Positions 2,324 to 28,359 of a stretch of DNA of 30,287 nt are shown piece by piece. The position numbers and the translations under genes are program-made. Every line of letters starts with the position of its first letter. Position 1 is the stretch's first letter. Source of the stretch: a virus; IMG/VR virus record IMGVR_UViG_3300017598_000405, positions 1 through 30,287 of that record. One strand, 5' to 3'. The notes beneath the pieces were generated by a model. That model made no database searches. It was not told where the DNA came from and saw nothing but the letters and a program-made list of their open reading frames with translations.

Positions 2324-3244
2324 TTACGAACCGAACGCGTCTTGCCAAGATTTATGGTAAGCCGTTACAGAAGTATTCACAGCAGGTAGACCAGCGTATA
2401 AAACAGCACCTAAATCGTTTGCACCAATACTGGTTAAACCATCAAGGATGGTAGCGGCATGTGTTTCACCACCCCAAGCACGAATTTCACGCAACATGTT
2501 AGCTACATCTAAGTAATCATCATACATACCTTGAACTGTATCAACTACACCTTGATATTGGTCTGGTACAAGGTTTGAGTAATCAGTAATGCCGAATGAC
2601 GTTTGAATTAAAGCAAACACTTCATCGTAAGGTACACCGAAATCATCTGTTATTTTACCGATTATATCAATACCTTGCTTTCTAACAGCCGCATGTTCAT
2701 CCACTGCTGGAACTGCTGGAACTGCTGGAACTGCTGGAACTGCTGGAACTGCTGGAACTGCTGGAACTGCTGGAACTGCTGGAACTGCTGGAACTGCTGG
2801 AACTGTTGGAACTGCTGGAACTGCTGGTGTGCCAGCAATAGGTGTAGGGTTAGCAGCTTTCCATTCAGCACGTACTTGTTCAGCTAAAGCTGGATCACCA
2901 CCTTTCTTACCACGCCAAACTTCACCACCTTTAACCAAATTTGATTTAACTTTAGTTTTAGTCTTAGCATGAATACGTTCATCCCAAGGGTAGCCTTCGC
3001 TATCAAGCTCCACCCCTACAGCAGCACTTGCCGTTGGGGTATCTACCACCGTGTTTCCAGCCGCTTGCTGCGTTGTACTTGCATCCACTGATGGTGTGGC
3101 TGGCACGTTTGGGACTGCTTGTTTATCCGTTACACCGAAATCTGCACCACCCATTTCAGTAGCTAATATTGTAAACTGTTTTGATAATTCATCTTGCAAA
3201 TTAGCGATTGTAGACATTGCATTTGCTATTTTAGTTTTGTTCAT
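2324..3244 (-). CDS. Phage protein with PWDxRIH motif and Pro-Ala-Val repeat
   Basis: 306 residues, first gene of the leftward operon, with an AAGG ribosome-binding site before ATG 3244. Residues 1-25 form a helix typical of a short coiled coil. The middle holds EGYPWDERIHAKTKTKVKS and then EVWRGKKGGDPALAEQVRAE, a motif found in many phage proteins of replication regions whose function I cannot state. This is followed by about 14 Pro-Ala-Val triplets, an extended linker. The C-terminal 120 residues look globular and helical, with Trp/Tyr/Gly-rich segments, and match no family I recognise. Position ahead of DUF2800 and DUF2815 suggests an accessory replication or recombination role. Function unknown. 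Confidence 0.7.
   Translation of the reverse strand: MNKTKIANAMSTIANLQDELSKQFTILATEMGGADFGVTDKQAVPNVPATPSVDASTTQQAAGNTVVDTPTASAAVGVELDSEGYPWDERIHAKTKTKVKSNLVKGGEVWRGKKGGDPALAEQVRAEWKAANPTPIAGTPAVPAVPTVPAVPAVPAVPAVPAVPAVPAVPAVPAVPAVPAVDEHAAVRKQGIDIIGKITDDFGVPYDEVFALIQTSFGITDYSNLVPDQYQGVVDTVQGMYDDYLDVANMLREIRAWGGETHAATILDGLTSIGANDLGAVLYAGLPAVNTSVTAYHKSWQDAFGS
2703..2826 (-). repeat. 9-bp tandem repeat encoding Pro-Ala-Val
   Basis: About 14 copies of a 9-bp unit (actgctgga on the plus strand), in frame with the 306-aa gene. One unit is changed and encodes Pro-Thr-Val; the eleven units on its left are identical. Near-identity of units suggests recent expansion by slippage. The reverse strand gives an artificial Trp-Asn-Cys reading frame that is not a gene. 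Confidence 0.92.
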
Positions 3245-3933: not shown

Positions 3934-4761
3934 AAACTAAACAAGACAGATAAAAATACCCGAATAGAATACCTAATTGAAAAATTGTTCAACATGAAAG
4001 GTGGTTTCAGTAAAGGTATGCGTACAACACATGACGATGGTCAATGGATTGAAATAAATAGTGGTGGTGGTATAAAACGCAACTATGTTCCCGATCACCC
4101 TTGGTTGTATAACTATGGGCTAGGTTTGGATAATGATAAGAACGAAACATTATTTGATGCTGCTGGTGGTTGTCACATTAACGAACCTGCTAAAACAATA
4201 GGTGATGATTTTGAAGTAGTTATGTTTAAAGATTTCAGCATATCATGGTTTAAATACGTCAAATTCAACCCTTCTAAGTTGAGAGGTATTTCACCTATTT
4301 CAAAATGTACATTGTATGAAAAACACCAACGAACAATTCAATTGAATGGTGAAGTGGACTATGAGAAATGTATGGTGGGTGTTAATGGTTTCAAACAAAC
4401 ACCTATAATGGTTCAAGGTAAACTCCACGACACTAATGATAATATTGTATTGTCAGCATCATTCAAAGAAGAATTTTATAAAGTTGGTGTTTTTCACATG
4501 AAAATTACTAATGATGCAAATGGTCAAGGTATACGGTTAGCATGTGAACCTTGGGAAGTGATTGAACTAATGAAGTACAGAAACAACCCAATTACACTTA
4601 ACGGTAATAAGAAACCTGTACTTCATTGGGTTTCAAAATACATAAAAGGTGAGTTGAGGAAAACAAAAGTTGACGCTCACATTAGAGGTTTGGGTAATTT
4701 TAACATTGACGGGTTCACTATTGAGATAACCAAACCTGAAAAATATATCCACGAATTATAG
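3928..4761 (+). CDS. Hypothetical phage protein (277 aa)
   Basis: I do not recognise a family. The protein is soluble, mixed alpha/beta, with no membrane segment. Visible features: a basic N-terminus, a Gly-rich stretch (WIEINSGGGIKRNYVPDHP), scattered Trp, and a C-terminal region with GNKKPVLHWVSKYIKGELRK. ATG 3928 was chosen because it ends a conserved leader shared with the gene at 4798. Its own stop (TAG 4759-4761) lies inside the second copy of that leader. The shared leader suggests that it and the next gene are controlled together, probably as early genes. Confidence 0.65.
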   Translation: MTKLNKTDKNTRIEYLIEKLFNMKGGFSKGMRTTHDDGQWIEINSGGGIKRNYVPDHPWLYNYGLGLDNDKNETLFDAAGGCHINEPAKTIGDDFEVVMFKDFSISWFKYVKFNPSKLRGISPISKCTLYEKHQRTIQLNGEVDYEKCMVGVNGFKQTPIMVQGKLHDTNDNIVLSASFKEEFYKVGVFHMKITNDANGQGIRLACEPWEVIELMKYRNNPITLNGNKKPVLHWVSKYIKGELRKTKVDAHIRGLGNFNIDGFTIEITKPEKYIHEL

Positions 4762-11643: not shown

Positions 11644-12027
11644 TTAGCCATTATATTCCTCAGTTTCATCTTCTAACACAATACCTTCATTGACTACGGG
11701 TTCAGGATTTTCAAAAATATCACTTAACACACCTCTACGTTGCTTAATGTCAACCATGAAATTCTCCTTGCGGTCACTCATTACGTCAGGACTCGTTATA
11801 AGCGCTTTTATATCCCACACTATAGGTTGTTCAATTGTGGTGTCAAAGTCTCGCATAGTAGCTATAACTTTACCCTGATGCGTTATCTTGAACCAGTCAT
11901 CGTAAATATGTAATTCAACACCTGAAAGTTTGTCTATAATGTGTTCGTCATCATTAACCACATACCTTTCCAAACCTTCTGCTAAACCTTTCTTGATAAA
12001 ATTTAATACACTTGCAATATTTAACAT
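11644..12027 (-). CDS. Hypothetical late protein (127 aa)
   Basis: 127 residues from ATG 12027 (MLNIASVLNFIKKGLAEGLE), with GGGGA upstream at good spacing. A longer form from ATG 12072 (142 aa) is possible, because that ATG overlaps the stop of the frame-shifted upstream product (TAATG), but the extra 15 codons would lie over a GC-rich hairpin. The protein is soluble, with a strand-rich middle (VELHIYDDWFKITHQGKVIA) and an acidic C-terminus (EGIVLEDETEEYNG). No family is recognised. It is the last gene of the late leftward run. Confidence 0.6.
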   Translation of the reverse strand: MLNIASVLNFIKKGLAEGLERYVVNDDEHIIDKLSGVELHIYDDWFKITHQGKVIATMRDFDTTIEQPIVWDIKALITSPDVMSDRKENFMVDIKQRRGVLSDIFENPEPVVNEGIVLEDETEEYNG

Positions 12028-12047
12028 AACTTTCCCCATAAAAGGAA

Positions 12048-12069
12048 GGGAGCAAAAGCCCCCTTTTTT
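12048..12069. terminator. GC-rich hairpin, possible terminator
   Basis: GGGAGC (12048-12053), loop AAAA, GCCCCC (12058-12063). On the minus strand the stem closes completely, with one G-T wobble, and is followed by TTCCTTTT; on the plus strand there is one A-C mismatch and a T6 run. It lies between two leftward genes and could attenuate late transcription or separate two messages. Confidence 0.4.
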
Positions 12070-12071
12070 CA

Positions 12072-12155
12072 TTAACCAAGACTAAAGAAACCTTTCTGCT
12101 TTTTGGATTGTGGTGCTTTCTCAACCTTCACAGGTTTTTCAGCAACCGTTACCCG
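12072..12155 (-). CDS. Frame -1 extension of the CCC-motif protein
   Basis: 27 codons in the -1 frame relative to the upstream gene, entered at the heptamer GGGAAAC (12161-12155). The peptide is Lys-rich and ends GFFSLG, with codon use like its neighbours. It has no ATG of its own. The frame is closed upstream by a TGA about ten codons before the heptamer, so it is hard to express except by frameshifting. The extended product would be about 204 residues instead of 178. Its stop overlaps an ATG at 12072. Confidence 0.55.
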   Translation of the reverse strand, partial: RVTVAEKPVKVEKAPQSKKQKGFFSLG

Positions 12156-12685
12156 TTTCCCCGTCCACCATGACCATGACCACCACGTTCAACTAATAAA
12201 GCATCCAACTTAGCGTTTTGTGATGCGTTAGCTATTGCATCAGCTACACGTACATCACTTGCTTGGTTTGCTAGAATTTGAGCTAAACCAGCATCAGTTT
12301 TCGCTTGATTCTGCACAGCTAACAACTTCGCTTCACAACAACACTTTGCCGCTTCACGTGCGTTTGCATTTTGCTCACGACTTAGCATGTTAACTTCTTG
12401 GGCGAAGAATTGTGTTTGGTCAGAAATTTTATCGTTAACGCGATCAAAACTAGTATTGGTTTGTAATGTGCGAAGTGTGTCACGATTTCGGTCTGCGTTG
12501 TCATCAATCTTCTGTGCTAAGAAATCATGACCTTGTGTGTTTAACTTTGAATTTGCATTAATGCGTACTGCATTACTCCCGTCATTGGCAAACTCTCTAC
12601 CATACCCACCACTTGCACCATAAGGTGTTGCAAAGTTTAACCCACGATTTGCTATTACTGCATCTGCTATGCTTGCGTTTTCCAT
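12149..12685 (-). CDS. CCC-motif late phage protein
   Basis: 178 residues from ATG 12685, with AGGTGG upstream; a GTG at 12697 is in frame but overlaps that site. N-terminus MENASIADAVIANRGLNF, a Gly/Asn-rich region, a long helical middle (FDRVNDKISDQTQFFAQEVN), then EAAKCCCEAKLLAVQNQAKT, a Cys-triplet helix seen in phage structural or morphogenesis proteins of unknown function, and a Gly-rich tail (GGHGHGGRGNG). The tail codons contain a perfect -1 slippery heptamer, so a minor longer form is expected. The gene lies in the late module between the moron and the last leftward gene. Probably a minor virion protein. Confidence 0.65.
   Translation of the reverse strand: MENASIADAVIANRGLNFATPYGASGGYGREFANDGSNAVRINANSKLNTQGHDFLAQKIDDNADRNRDTLRTLQTNTSFDRVNDKISDQTQFFAQEVNMLSREQNANAREAAKCCCEAKLLAVQNQAKTDAGLAQILANQASDVRVADAIANASQNAKLDALLVERGGHGHGGRGNG
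12155..12161 (-). other. Candidate programmed -1 frameshift site (GGGAAAC)
   Basis: In the zero frame the bases read G GGA AAC, exactly the X XXY YYZ phase, one codon before the stop TAA (12151-12149). Lambda tail genes G-T use the closely related GGGAAAG. Downstream only a weak GGTT/AACC stem (12147-12144 with 12136-12133) is seen as a stimulator. Confidence 0.6.
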
Positions 12686-24028: not shown

Positions 24029-24042
24029 ACCTTTAAGGTCTA
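24029..24042. repeat. 14-bp direct repeat, left copy
   Basis: ACCTTTAAGGTCTA, identical to 24951-24964. It carries the ribosome-binding site of the gene at 24023 and the TAG stop of the endonuclease remnant. Confidence 0.85.
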
Positions 24043-24943
24043 CTTAGATGGTTCAAACCAATAATTTGGGAATTTTGAACTCTTACATCTGTTTATAATT
24101 GTTGCTTTAGTGCAATCATCCAACTCAGCAGCAGATGTTGATGAGTCAAACTTACCGTTAGGTGTATGATAATATCCTATGAAACCAGATGATGAAACTC
24201 CAACCCTTGATTTCAGTTTAATTAATCGCTCTTGGTTGCTGTTGTCAACTGATTCAAACCAATAATCTTTAAAGTTATCACTGTGCAACCTATACTTAAT
24301 ACCGTTGCTAGTGCAACCTATACTTTTAGCAGCTAAGTTTAAAGATTCAAATTTACCGTTAGGGGTATGATAATATCCTATGAAATATTTAGAACTAGCG
24401 CCTGATTGTGCTGTTTTAATTTTTAACACTACATCGTCTTTTATAGCATTAACTGCTATTGACTCAAACCAGTAATTCTGAAAATTAGAACTTTTACATC
24501 TGTTCCTAATTGTTTTAACAGTGCAACCAACACCTTCGGACGCTAAAACCAGTGATTCAAATTTACCGAAAGGTGTGTGGTAATAACCGTTAAAATTAGG
24601 AGACAAACAACCTTTCTTACCAAACCAGAAACTCTTATCACCTGTAAATTTGCCAATGTTGGATTCACTAATTTTATGTTTATGTTCTGGTGAAAGTTTT
24701 CTACCTTTGTTAGCTTTCAACAACCCAACAGTTGTTTTATGTGACATTGTTCTACCAATGTTGGACTCACTAATGTTACGTTTGTGTTCTGGTGAAAACT
24801 TTCTACCTTTGTTAGCTTTGCTCATTTTAACACGTGTTTCACGCGAATGTGTCTCACCAAACATAGCAAGGTGCTGTTTTCTTAGTCCAACCACGCATCA
24901 CACGAGAACTTATAATTTGATCATACAACCTCTCGTAATTCAT
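24040..24943 (-). pseudogene. Decayed HNH/NUMOD homing endonuclease
   Basis: Two pieces in different frames. An N-terminal piece starts at ATG 24943 with AGGTG upstream (MNYERLYDQIISSRVMRGWT, then KKTAPCYVW) and stops at 24854; this is the usual opening of phage HNH homing endonucleases, just before where the HHI catalytic motif would be. The larger piece, 24894-24040 from a GTG (284 aa), begins near the end of where an HNH domain would finish. It holds two NUMOD3-like units (KMSKANKGRKFSPEHKRNIS and LLKANKGRKLSPEHKHKISE) and three 60-residue repeats starting GYYHTPNGKFES and ending NYWFES, probably DNA-binding. The catalytic HNH core is missing, so it cannot cut DNA by this motif. It sits between two tail genes. 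Confidence 0.75.
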
Positions 24944-24964: not shown

Positions 24965-27699
24965 TTCATTGCGTACTTAATATGGTTTACAATGCGGTCA
25001 GCATTATCTTCATACCACCTTTCAGTAGCATTATAACCTGACGAATCAGGTAACGTCAAATTAATACTTGTATCCCCACCTGAACCACCTTCTTTTCTAC
25101 GTTTTAAGTCATCTTTCAAATCTTTGTTAAGCTTTTCAGTCATTACACGTTCACCACCTTGTAAAAGATAGCTACCTGTTCTTTCAACGGTACTGATACC
25201 GTCATGGAACTGTGGCATTTGTTGACTTTTAATATTCCTAACATTAACTAAACCAGCAGCAGTAACTAAACCAGCAGCAGCAAAGTTAAAAGGTGGTGGT
25301 AATGAAGCTAAAGCATTGTTTGCAGCAGCATAAGTGTTCATCACAGATTTAGCTATGTTAGCAGCTTTACTGATAGCAAATAGCTTTTTAGACCCACTAG
25401 CACCCAATGTACTTAATGCTGACCATGTATCTTTACTCGCTTGCATTCTGCCTTGTTTTTCAAGTTCAGCTTGTTTGATATTAAACTTACTTGTTACACC
25501 TTCACGTTGTTTTCTTTTTTCATCAGCACTAACTTCTGACGCTTCAATAGCATCTAACGATTCTTGTTTTACACGTAGTAGTTCGGCTTGCTTATTTTCT
25601 TGCTCACCAAGATTGACACCAAAGAAATCTTGGAAACCACCTGCACCATTTTCAACACCAGCAAAACTTTCATCAACTTTACCACTGAATTGTTGAGTAG
25701 CACGTTTAGCTGATTCTTCTTGTGCTTTTAATGTTTTAGAAGCTTCTGCTTGACTAAAAGCATCAACGTCAGCATCGTAATTTGAAGCAAGTTTGAATAG
25801 ATGATTAACCATGAATTCTTCACGTGAAGAATAACCTAAATCAGCCCACTCACTTTTTTTGAATTCAGCATTTTTAAATGCTTCAACATCAGCTTCATAC
25901 TTAGCTGTAATTTTGGCAACTTTACCACCACCACCGTCAATGGTTGCTATTAATTTAGCACGTTTTCTAGCTGCTGATGCAGCAACTTCTAATGCTCTAC
26001 GCTCACGATTTTCAGCAGCAACAATTCTATCGTTTTCACGCTTATCAATTTTATCAAGTTTTAACGCTAGACCTTTTTTAACATTTACAATTGTATCCGC
26101 ATATTCGTTTTCAACATCTATTTTATCATTGTAAGCATCTTCAACAAATTTATCATGGTGTAAAGTTAACTCTTTATTTTTATCAGCATGTTCTTGTTTA
26201 GCTTTATTTACTTGTACATTGATGTCGTATTCATTTTTACCAGCATGTCTTATACGTCTAATTTTTTCACCGTAAAACATTTCATTTACTTTGAGTGATT
26301 GATCAAACAAAGCTTGTTCTTCTTTTATAGCTTTATCACTAGCTATTGTTTGTTTTTCATACGCTTCGGTTAATGCTTTTGTTTTTTCCTGATGCACTCT
26401 TTCAGCTTTTGCTTTTTCTTTTTCAAAACCTGAAATTAAAGATATTCTACGTTGATCGTATGATTTGATAATTTCTTTATTAGCGTTTAAAGTTTGGTCT
26501 AATTCGCCAGCAAGTGTTTTAGCAAGCCCTTTTGCTTGTTGTATTCTTTCTACCGATTGTATTCTTTTTTTCTGGTTGATAAACTCCTGAAATTCAATAA
26601 CAGCTTCGTTATATCGACCTTCTGCAACCTTGATATTCTCGTCTTGTTTTGCAGTTGATTTACCTTCTTTTTCAAGCTGGTTTCGATACTTCATTGCTGC
26701 TAGTAATGTACGGTATCTTAACTGTTCTCTGGCTTGTAACTTATCAACGTCATCAAGTTCTATTTGTTTACTGTCATGAATCTTACTGCCTATTTGAAGC
26801 ATTTCATCAGTAATCATTACAAGACCAGTAATAGAGTCTCTTGCAAGTCTTATAAGTTTCGTTTTACCAAGTGATTCTAAAAAGTTATCCCAAGACTGAC
26901 CAGCAGAATCAACAGCAGCTTCTAACTGTGCGGCTTCAATGTTAGCTAAACCACCGAACTGATTTCGCATTTCAGCTAATACAATGTTTTGAGCGCCTAC
27001 GGTATCACCCATTTCCCACATTGACGCTATCATGTCTTTTTGGGATTTTGTAAATTGAATACCTTTACGAGACAATGCTCCAAGGTTTGCAATTGGGTCG
27101 TTTAAAGCTTTACCAAACGCAACCACACCTTCACGCAAATTACCACCAAATACAACTTTAGCATCAACAGCTAATTTAATGGTTTCTTTAAATGTTTCAC
27201 CTTGCACTTTACGAAAGGTTAATAATGCGTTGATTGCTTCTGAGGTACTAGCAACATCACCTAATGTATTTCTAGCTGTGCTTTGTGCTAAATCTTCTAA
27301 ATCGTTGCGAGTTAATCTAGCGGCAAAACCAGTGGCTTTAAGCAACCCTTGAAATTTGTTTTGTCGTTTTTCAAATTGCTCTAATGAAGATATTAATTTA
27401 CCAACGGCAATACCTACACCTGCAATACCTACACCAAGTGCAACATTACCTAAACCAAATCGGGTGATACCTGTACCGATAGCTGACAATCGACCAGAAA
27501 TAGGGTCTAACTGACCATTGAAGATAGCAACGTTGTTAGCTGCTCTTGTGAATTGTTGACCTAACTCTTTGACTTCTTTCTTGGATTTTTTGGTAGACTT
27601 TCGGGTACGCTCTAATTTTCGAGCAGCTTGGTCTAATGATTTTTCAAATGATTTAGTGTCACCAGCAATACCAATGACAATCTTAGTATCTTTACCCAC
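24955..27699 (-). CDS. Tail length tape measure protein
   Basis: 914 residues. GTG 27699 overlaps the end of the T chaperone frame and has AAGGAA upstream. N-terminus MGKDTKIVIGIAGDTKSFEK followed by Lys-rich helix is typical of tape measures. A hydrophobic segment at about 80-105 (LGVGIAGVGIAVGKLISSLE) and another near the C-terminus (NFAAAGLVTAAGLVNVRNIK) fit membrane-active parts. The long middle (about 330-700) is charged coiled coil. The end HDGISTVERTGSYLLQGGER is the conserved C-terminal motif region. It scaffolds tail-tube assembly and sets its length; at about 0.15 nm per residue the tail would be roughly 135-140 nm. Confidence 0.9.
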   Translation of the reverse strand: MGKDTKIVIGIAGDTKSFEKSLDQAARKLERTRKSTKKSKKEVKELGQQFTRAANNVAIFNGQLDPISGRLSAIGTGITRFGLGNVALGVGIAGVGIAVGKLISSLEQFEKRQNKFQGLLKATGFAARLTRNDLEDLAQSTARNTLGDVASTSEAINALLTFRKVQGETFKETIKLAVDAKVVFGGNLREGVVAFGKALNDPIANLGALSRKGIQFTKSQKDMIASMWEMGDTVGAQNIVLAEMRNQFGGLANIEAAQLEAAVDSAGQSWDNFLESLGKTKLIRLARDSITGLVMITDEMLQIGSKIHDSKQIELDDVDKLQAREQLRYRTLLAAMKYRNQLEKEGKSTAKQDENIKVAEGRYNEAVIEFQEFINQKKRIQSVERIQQAKGLAKTLAGELDQTLNANKEIIKSYDQRRISLISGFEKEKAKAERVHQEKTKALTEAYEKQTIASDKAIKEEQALFDQSLKVNEMFYGEKIRRIRHAGKNEYDINVQVNKAKQEHADKNKELTLHHDKFVEDAYNDKIDVENEYADTIVNVKKGLALKLDKIDKRENDRIVAAENRERRALEVAASAARKRAKLIATIDGGGGKVAKITAKYEADVEAFKNAEFKKSEWADLGYSSREEFMVNHLFKLASNYDADVDAFSQAEASKTLKAQEESAKRATQQFSGKVDESFAGVENGAGGFQDFFGVNLGEQENKQAELLRVKQESLDAIEASEVSADEKRKQREGVTSKFNIKQAELEKQGRMQASKDTWSALSTLGASGSKKLFAISKAANIAKSVMNTYAAANNALASLPPPFNFAAAGLVTAAGLVNVRNIKSQQMPQFHDGISTVERTGSYLLQGGERVMTEKLNKDLKDDLKRRKEGGSGGDTSINLTLPDSSGYNATERWYEDNADRIVNHIKYAMNRP

Positions 27700-27979
27700 C
27701 GCTACGATTCCTTAAAATTGCTTTCATTTCTTGCCAAGTTTGATCAGGTTTATCGGCAGTTTCTTTATTTGGATAAAAGTCAGATGGTTTTACTGGTTCT
27801 TTCGGGTTGTATAACCCATTAACAAGATATGTGCAAACTTCGGCATGTTGATACATTTCCAATTCGTATCCCCACGGTTCTTCCATATAATGATCAAACC
27901 ATTTATAAAAAACGCTTGATGGCATTTCATCAAGCATTTCATCAACATCAAGACGATTAAACTTTATAGCTAGTCTGTT
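27692..27979 (-). CDS. T-like tail assembly chaperone (made by -1 frameshift)
   Basis: Frame -1 relative to the G-like gene and open for about 95 codons. NRLAIKFNRLDVDEMLDEMP then FDHYMEEPWGYELEMYQHAE is the DUF4035-type pattern found in the T part of lambda-type G-T fusions. The conserved RLA segment begins before the first ATG (27937), so that ATG cannot be the true start. As in lambda, a small share of ribosomes should shift from G into this frame; both products help the tape measure and tail tube to assemble and are absent from virions. Slippage could occur at AAAGGAA (28006-28000) or TTTGGAA (27985-27979). Confidence 0.75.
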   Translation of the reverse strand, partial: NRLAIKFNRLDVDEMLDEMPSSVFYKWFDHYMEEPWGYELEMYQHAEVCTYLVNGLYNPKEPVKPSDFYPNKETADKPDQTWQEMKAILRNRSGG

Positions 27980-28359
27980 TCCAAACTTTCGTCCTGCAAT
28001 TCCTTTTCTTCGAACTTTAGTCCAGCAGCATCCTCTGCTGAATGTATTAACTTGTTAACATCGTTCATGTTTGTAACTTCATCACAAAGCATTCTATAAA
28101 TGTTATTAGGTGTTTGAGTAGGCTGACCATCAACAATAAAATGGTCAACTAAACAAGCAGCAACAAGCCGAAACCCTACTTTCGTATTGATTCCAGATTT
28201 GAAATAAATGGATGAACCATCTTTTACAAGACCATGTTCACGTTCCATTATGTCGTAGTATTCACACATAGCTAATGCTGATGGTTCAGTAAGGATGAAG
28301 TTCTCACCCTGTACTTCAACCTCAACAGTTTTACGCTTGCGGTTTTTAAACAAACCCAT
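27970..28359 (-). CDS. G-like tail assembly chaperone
   Basis: 129 residues. ATG 28359 overlaps the tail tube stop (TAATG). N-terminus FKNRKRKTVEVEVQGENFIL then EPSALAMCEYYDIMEREHG, a middle with VGFRLVAACLVDHF and an acidic C-terminus (EEKELQDESLETD) fit the G family between the tail tube and tape-measure genes. The last codons overlap the -1 frame that encodes the T part. Confidence 0.75.
   Translation of the reverse strand: MGLFKNRKRKTVEVEVQGENFILTEPSALAMCEYYDIMEREHGLVKDGSSIYFKSGINTKVGFRLVAACLVDHFIVDGQPTQTPNNIYRMLCDEVTNMNDVNKLIHSAEDAAGLKFEEKELQDESLETD

Follow-up and report, generated by a model that had tools for sequence, protein, structure and literature searches.

Putative −1 frameshifting and UGA readthrough at the end of one tailed-phage gene family, each predicted to yield a minor isoform with a basic tail

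The IMG/VR virus record IMGVR_UViG_3300017598_000405, a stretch of 30,287 bases which was analysed over its whole length and is referred to here as the window, carries tailed-phage genes, among which a gene on the minus strand encodes a protein of 178 amino acids with the motif AKCCCE (the CCC-motif gene). A slippery heptamer lies one codon before its stop codon, and the question raised by this locus is whether some ribosomes pass that stop and make a second, longer protein. According to our analysis of the sequences, programmed recoding very probably yields a minor, tailed isoform of the CCC-motif protein, with −1 frameshifting and UGA readthrough as interchangeable means of producing it. The features on which this interpretation is built are the following.

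12149 to 12685, minus strand: the CCC-motif gene, with a zero-frame product of 178 amino acids, its ATG at 12685, its TAA at 12151 to 12149 and the motif AKCCCE.
12155 to 12161, minus strand: the slippery heptamer G_GGA_AAC in X_XXY_YYZ phase, identical in the relatives L002 and L041.
12149 to 12151, minus strand: the zero-frame stop TAA, one codon past the heptamer.
12189 to 12191, minus strand: the TGA that bounds the −1 frame on the 5′ side of the heptamer.
12072 to 12155, minus strand: the −1 frame tail RVTVAEKPVKVEKAPQSKKQKGFFSLG with its stop TAA (12074 to 12072).

The 3′ end of the gene reads GGA CGG GGA AAC GGG TAA, of which CGG GGA AAC GGG TAA occupies positions 12163 to 12149 of the minus strand. 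An earlier reading made from the DNA letters alone (the sequence-only reading) had placed the heptamer in phase and one codon before the TAA of the 178-amino-acid gene, which is exact when the sequence is read again, and had described a 27-codon −1 extension ending in TAA at 12072, which is correct by translation of that frame. After a −1 slip, the window would be read as CGG GTA ACG and onwards to GGT TAA, adding the 27-amino-acid tail RVTVAEKPVKVEKAPQSKKQKGFFSLG. It had further described the −1 frame as lacking an ATG and as shut by a nearby upstream TGA, and this is borne out: the frame is open from 27 nucleotides upstream of the heptamer, right after the TGA at 12191 to 12189, and the sole ATG, GTG, TTG or CTG in it is a GTG within the tail, 30 nucleotides past the start of the heptamer and without an evident Shine-Dalgarno sequence.

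The close family, in a group of genes described as marine phage genes, consists of nine distinct members, namely the window, L001, L002, L003, L004, L008, L030, L037, and L041. All nine, without exception, have an open tail past the stop codon of the CCC-motif gene, and in no case is it a plain in-frame continuation. The frameshift architecture, in which the identical heptamer precedes a TAA and the tail lies in the −1 frame, is present in three lineages: the window, L002, with the 3′ end TCG GGA AAC TAA and the −1 frame tail ...SVSVKSPKKQKGFLRF, and L041 (as well as L040), with the 3′ end CGG GGA AAC TAA and the −1 tail ...KSRKSPKKQGGFLQF. L041 turned up with the L008 protein as query after the idea had been formed, and it fits the same architecture. 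The L002 and L041 proteins are at most 57% identical to that of the window, yet the heptamer, the −1 extension and the end KKQ[KG]GF are kept, and the proposal of the sequence-only reading that a −1 frameshift gives a tailed second form is therefore well supported, by a comparison that this reading had itself named as a check.

The other six members (L001, L003, L004, L008, L030, and L037) have a UGA followed by an in-frame tail. Past the UGA, the tail is ...KGHKQKGFFNMFS in L003 and ...KGNKQKGFLNFW in L004, which is the same record as the isolate Shewanella phage 1/44, where the sequence past the UGA includes SVIGESEVPENEPNATPSK. The in-frame tails of L001, L008, L030, and L037 comprise 23, 21, 73, and 73 codons, respectively, and end in other basic sequences (KKSVK, KQVKPK, KSVKDVK). 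The C-terminal KQ[KG]GF[FL] is common to all three frameshift tails and to two UGA tails (L003 and L004), as KQKGF in the window, L002, L003, and L004 and as KQGGF in L041, and the KQ[KG]GF end is absent elsewhere in the loci scanned. A tail carried in the zero frame by homologues had been named beforehand as a sign against frameshifting; it does occur in these six members, but only behind a UGA, which supports recoding.

Stops of this kind could also result from decay, or from sequencing or assembly errors, in a gene with a once in-frame tail, given that a single inserted base at the heptamer, or a single substitution at the UGA, would bring the tail into the zero frame. However, an uninterrupted tail is found in none of the nine members, three lineages from separate records share the heptamer, at least four lineages, among them an isolate genome, have the UGA, and the tail of L030 and L037 is still constrained, all of which makes this explanation highly improbable.

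The relatives were gathered by protein searches of viral contigs, which returned L001 to L004, L008, L037, L040/L041 and the distant L011 and L022 to L024, and L030 was reached via the downstream gene. L040 is near-identical to L041, and L006, L007, L009, L010, L018 to L021, L025 to L029, L033, L034, L036, L038, and L039 are duplicates of the same contigs. Besides Shewanella phage 1/44, the phage isolates include the Vibrio phages 1.055.O, 1.083.O, and 2.096.O as distant relatives. In the distant L023 (3466 to 3560; L024 covers the same region), the CCC gene ends in TGA with the zero frame open into the next gene (MCYEDQ...), possibly a further case of readthrough. No relative was found in two scans of genome contigs, and L032 and L035, which came up when the tail was sought as a DNA pattern, match by chance and are not homologues. 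Pfam and PHROG scans of the CCC core protein gave no family at a credible E-value, including no known capsid or tail protein, and a scan against Rfam returned nothing. The sequence-only reading had taken the gene for a late gene encoding a minor virion protein, which is not supported.

How readily could this arrangement arise by chance? Within the long open reading frames (ORFs) of nine related records, in-phase GGGAAAC occurs three times in 35,037 codon positions, and all three occurrences fall in the last four codons of the CCC-motif gene, in three lineages; if sites were random and independent, the probability of such a placement would be about 1e-9. X_XXY_YYZ heptamers number 191 in the same positions. 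Similarity between tails was assessed by pairwise comparison against shuffled tails, with 2000 shuffles, and the resulting counts were 0/2000 for both L002/L041 and L002/L004, 1/2000 for window/L003, 8/2000 for both window/L041 and window/L004, and 19/2000 for window/L002. Purifying selection is seen on one UGA-type tail, that of L030 and L037, where the ratio of nonsynonymous to synonymous substitution rates (dN/dS) over 73 codons is 0.18 (Fisher p 3e-4) versus 0.07 for the core.

In Shewanella phage 1/44, TGA ends 14 of the 74 genes, and among these the CCC-motif gene is the one extended furthest in frame. This bears on the alternative that UGA is reassigned in the phages or their hosts, so that in the UGA type the full-length protein would be the regular product rather than a minor form, which would suit the observation that the in-frame class has no stop other than UGA. 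Given those 14 genes, the lack of any tRNA gene in the records scanned, and the fact that the frameshift members would need a shift anyway, we deem reassignment exceedingly improbable.

The phylogeny of the core protein does not separate the two architectures. The window and L001 are sisters (98/97), as are L002 and L008 (97/98), so that each pair holds one frameshift member and one UGA member, L002 and L008 being 81% identical. In a tree with L041 and more relatives, L002 and L008 still group together (100/100), and a single clade of the three frameshift members is rejected by the approximately unbiased (AU) test (p-AU 7e-5). As judged from these trees, there would have been at least two changes of mechanism, or else recombination would have carried the 3′ end and its recoding site together.

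The mechanism that we propose starts from one initiation codon and leads to two proteins. Most ribosomes would end at the zero-frame stop and release the short form, for which a low-confidence prediction gives a single long helix and Gly-rich ends. On the G_GGA_AAC of the window, L002, and L041, a minority would slip by −1, probably aided by a downstream hairpin, and would add a basic tail ending in KKQ[KG]GF; in the six other relatives, a minority would read through the UGA, presumably by means of a near-cognate tRNA-Trp, and would append a similar tail in frame. The tailed minor form would be kept by selection, whereas the recoding device would have been exchanged at least twice, unless the 3′ end travelled by recombination. 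Three further features of the minus strand are relevant here.

12112 to 12147, minus strand: a candidate stimulatory hairpin, which begins 7 nucleotides past the heptamer.
12046 to 12065, minus strand: a terminator-like hairpin just past the stop of the tail.
11644 to 12027, minus strand: the downstream partner gene, of the MLNI...HLYDD family, 127 amino acids, second gene of the cassette.

Since the terminator-like hairpin comes after the stop of the tail, the tail lies inside the transcript. The 50 nucleotides which follow the heptamer in the window have a folding energy of −14.8 kcal/mol (z −2.57), with 4 of 200 shuffles as stable, and 1.2% of all 50-nucleotide segments of the record are as stable. 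Hairpins start 7, 7, and 6 nucleotides past the heptamer in the window, L002, and L041, with z values of −2.57, −2.44, and −1.21, respectively; a contribution of these downstream hairpins to the slip is suggestive only. G_GGA_AAC is a low-efficiency heptamer in Escherichia coli, but it counts as one of the more frequent motifs in insertion sequences that are believed to rely on frameshifting (PMC4066793). Its weakness in E. coli is in keeping with a minor product. Readthrough of UGA is expected to proceed at a low rate. We infer that the rate at the heptamer may be low and near that of UGA readthrough, which is perhaps why the two devices interchange.

Several observations weigh against recoding as set out above. 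The L041 hairpin is unexceptional, with 22 of 200 shuffles as stable, no marked structure is present at the six UGA sites (z −1.10 to +0.65), and a conserved upstream Shine-Dalgarno stimulator was sought in the family and none was seen. The −1 frame is open for at least 25 codons in 43 of 105 genes, partly because the next genes overlap, and the zero frame past the stop is open for as long in 23 of 105, so that in either frame openness alone is weak evidence. The distant proteins L011, L022, L023, L013, and L014 have no comparable tail, which makes the tail specific to this subfamily. The CCC gene is missing from Vibrio phages 1.049.O and 1.050.O: at 3989 to 4177 of L016 and at 3989 to 4177 of L017, their respective loci, the first CCC codons run directly into the downstream gene at a shared GTTCAATT, which gives a 62-amino-acid fusion, and a search for a second CCC copy in these two phages found none; the gene was deleted there and can thus be lost. 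The tail of L003 and L004 has a dN/dS of 0.78, not significantly below 1 and hence uninformative. Finally, the tail of L030 and L037 has ATG as its codons 11 and 13, in frame and preceded by AAGGA, so that part of it could have a start of its own.

These AAGGA-preceded ATGs, together with the single GTG of the window tail, are what could be expected if the tail were a separate small gene, or the product of reinitiation after the stop, and were not fused to the CCC protein. However, neither ATG nor GTG nor TTG is present in the tails of L002 among the frameshift members and of L001 and L008 among the UGA members, and L041 has just one such codon in its tail, 3 codons short of where the frame ends. 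Moreover, in L030 and L037 the ten residues from the UGA to the first ATG are identical though two codons differ, including a serine encoded by AGT versus TCT. The −1 frame of L002 is shut 3 nucleotides upstream of the heptamer, so that a shift must occur in the few codons that hold it, and a separate gene would leave the heptamer without a role. We therefore consider a separate start very unlikely as the source of the tail.

The dN/dS of the L003 and L004 tail would also agree with frameshifting being real and the UGA-type tails being unexpressed remnants, in which case the mechanisms would not interchange, and so would the UGA contexts, which are not conserved except for TGA NNN NNT AAC GGN in four members. 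On the other hand, L003 and L004 hold KQKGF[FL] in frame despite a 6-nucleotide indel, and L030 and L037 keep their 73 codons at the dN/dS and significance given above, which renders remnants unlikely and leaves recoding by both routes as the preferred interpretation. The shared TGA NNN NNT AAC GGN of L001, L008, L030, and L037 may be a readthrough context or may just reflect the coding of the tail.

Together with its downstream partner, the CCC-motif gene makes up a two-gene cassette, which occurs in differing genome neighbourhoods. In phage 1/44 and the Vibrio phages, the cassette is flanked by the portal gene and the major capsid gene and runs on the opposite strand to the head genes, and in the window and L002 it is located elsewhere. 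Structure prediction from alignment A4 (L003, with UGA read as W) gave a poor model, with a mean predicted local distance difference test (pLDDT) score of 57.5 and a predicted template modelling (pTM) score of 0.17, in which one long helix spans residues 39 to 174 and the ends, including the tail, are disordered. Only tentatively, the tail might be pictured as a flexible basic arm by which the minority subunits of a coiled-coil assembly could bind nucleic acid, a membrane or a partner protein. Elsewhere in the window, a NUMOD3-containing, homing-endonuclease-like protein is encoded within the tail module (24040 to 24894, minus strand), and a 306-amino-acid protein (2324 to 3244, minus strand) has a long VPAVPA repeat, which leaves long open frames on both strands.

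Known systems offer partial parallels. In the RNA phage Q-beta, a leaky UGA at the end of the coat gene leads to the minor extended protein A1 in bacteria; that system concerns the coat of an RNA phage and a long extension, whereas the gene discussed here belongs to a tailed DNA phage, does not encode a coat protein and has a short tail. Frameshift-made C-terminal extensions have been described for coat and tail genes of the phages T7/T3, A2, A118, A500, and PSA, and it was noted in review that Ig-like extensions are indifferent to +1, −1 or in-frame decoding (PMC5009743). Gene 10 of T7/T3 (10A/10B) and the Listeria phages A118, A500, and PSA likewise pair a short form with a minor frameshifted C-terminal extension made near the stop (PMC5009743). 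There, however, the genes encode major capsid or tail proteins, and some of the extensions are Ig-like, while the gene considered here is unannotated, would gain a short basic peptide and has relatives that use UGA. The heptamer G_GGA_AAC itself has been reported for the G-T protein of halovirus HCTV-1, which falls among the lambda-type G/G-T tail assembly chaperones (PMC5009743). Those genes are unrelated to the CCC-motif gene, and the tail-chaperone-like pair of the window is separate, at 27692 to 28359. In this pair, on the minus strand, the second ORF lies in the −1 frame of the first, and the candidate slip site is AGT_TTG (T_TTG), not a classical heptamer. A further parallel is retroviral gag-pol, which is expressed by −1 frameshifting in many viruses and by UAG readthrough in murine leukaemia virus (PMC5009743). 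As proposed here, the same product is obtained by either device depending on the member; gag-pol differs in belonging to eukaryotic viruses, in its large enzymatic extension and in its stop codon, whereas the phage genes compared here include sisters which are 81% identical.

The claim of novelty made by the sequence-only reading stands in part: C-terminal frameshift extensions in phages had already been described (PMC5009743), while what looks new is the gene concerned and the exchange of one mechanism for the other. Frameshifting and readthrough within one tailed-phage gene family were not found in the literature searched, which left most subscription journals outside it. The UGA alternative in the relatives is a more surprising result than the frameshift reading, itself well supported by sequence comparison. 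Probably, then, this is a tailed-phage family that has repeatedly swapped −1 frameshifting and UGA readthrough at one site without giving up its minor basic-tailed isoform. Such an alternation, here between sister sequences, would be the equivalent in bacterial viruses of that seen in gag-pol.

A further implication would be that gene callers drop such tails. In phage 1/44 the annotated ORF over the tail, the 33-amino-acid S144_27 (KJ018213; L012 9446 to 9547), is in the wrong frame and was set aside as a candidate: it lies in the +1 frame and not in that of KQKGF, and the matching frame of L003 has a stop. Since Shewanella phage 1/44 is a sequenced isolate, the UGA branch is directly testable. 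The comparisons suggest that the existence of two forms counts for more than the way in which they arise. If the interpretation is true, the sister pairs window/L001 and L002/L008 would be natural cases for studying how a device is switched without loss of the product and what output each device gives, and evolution would keep the two-form output while treating the recoding device as replaceable, among closely related genes of bacterial viruses.
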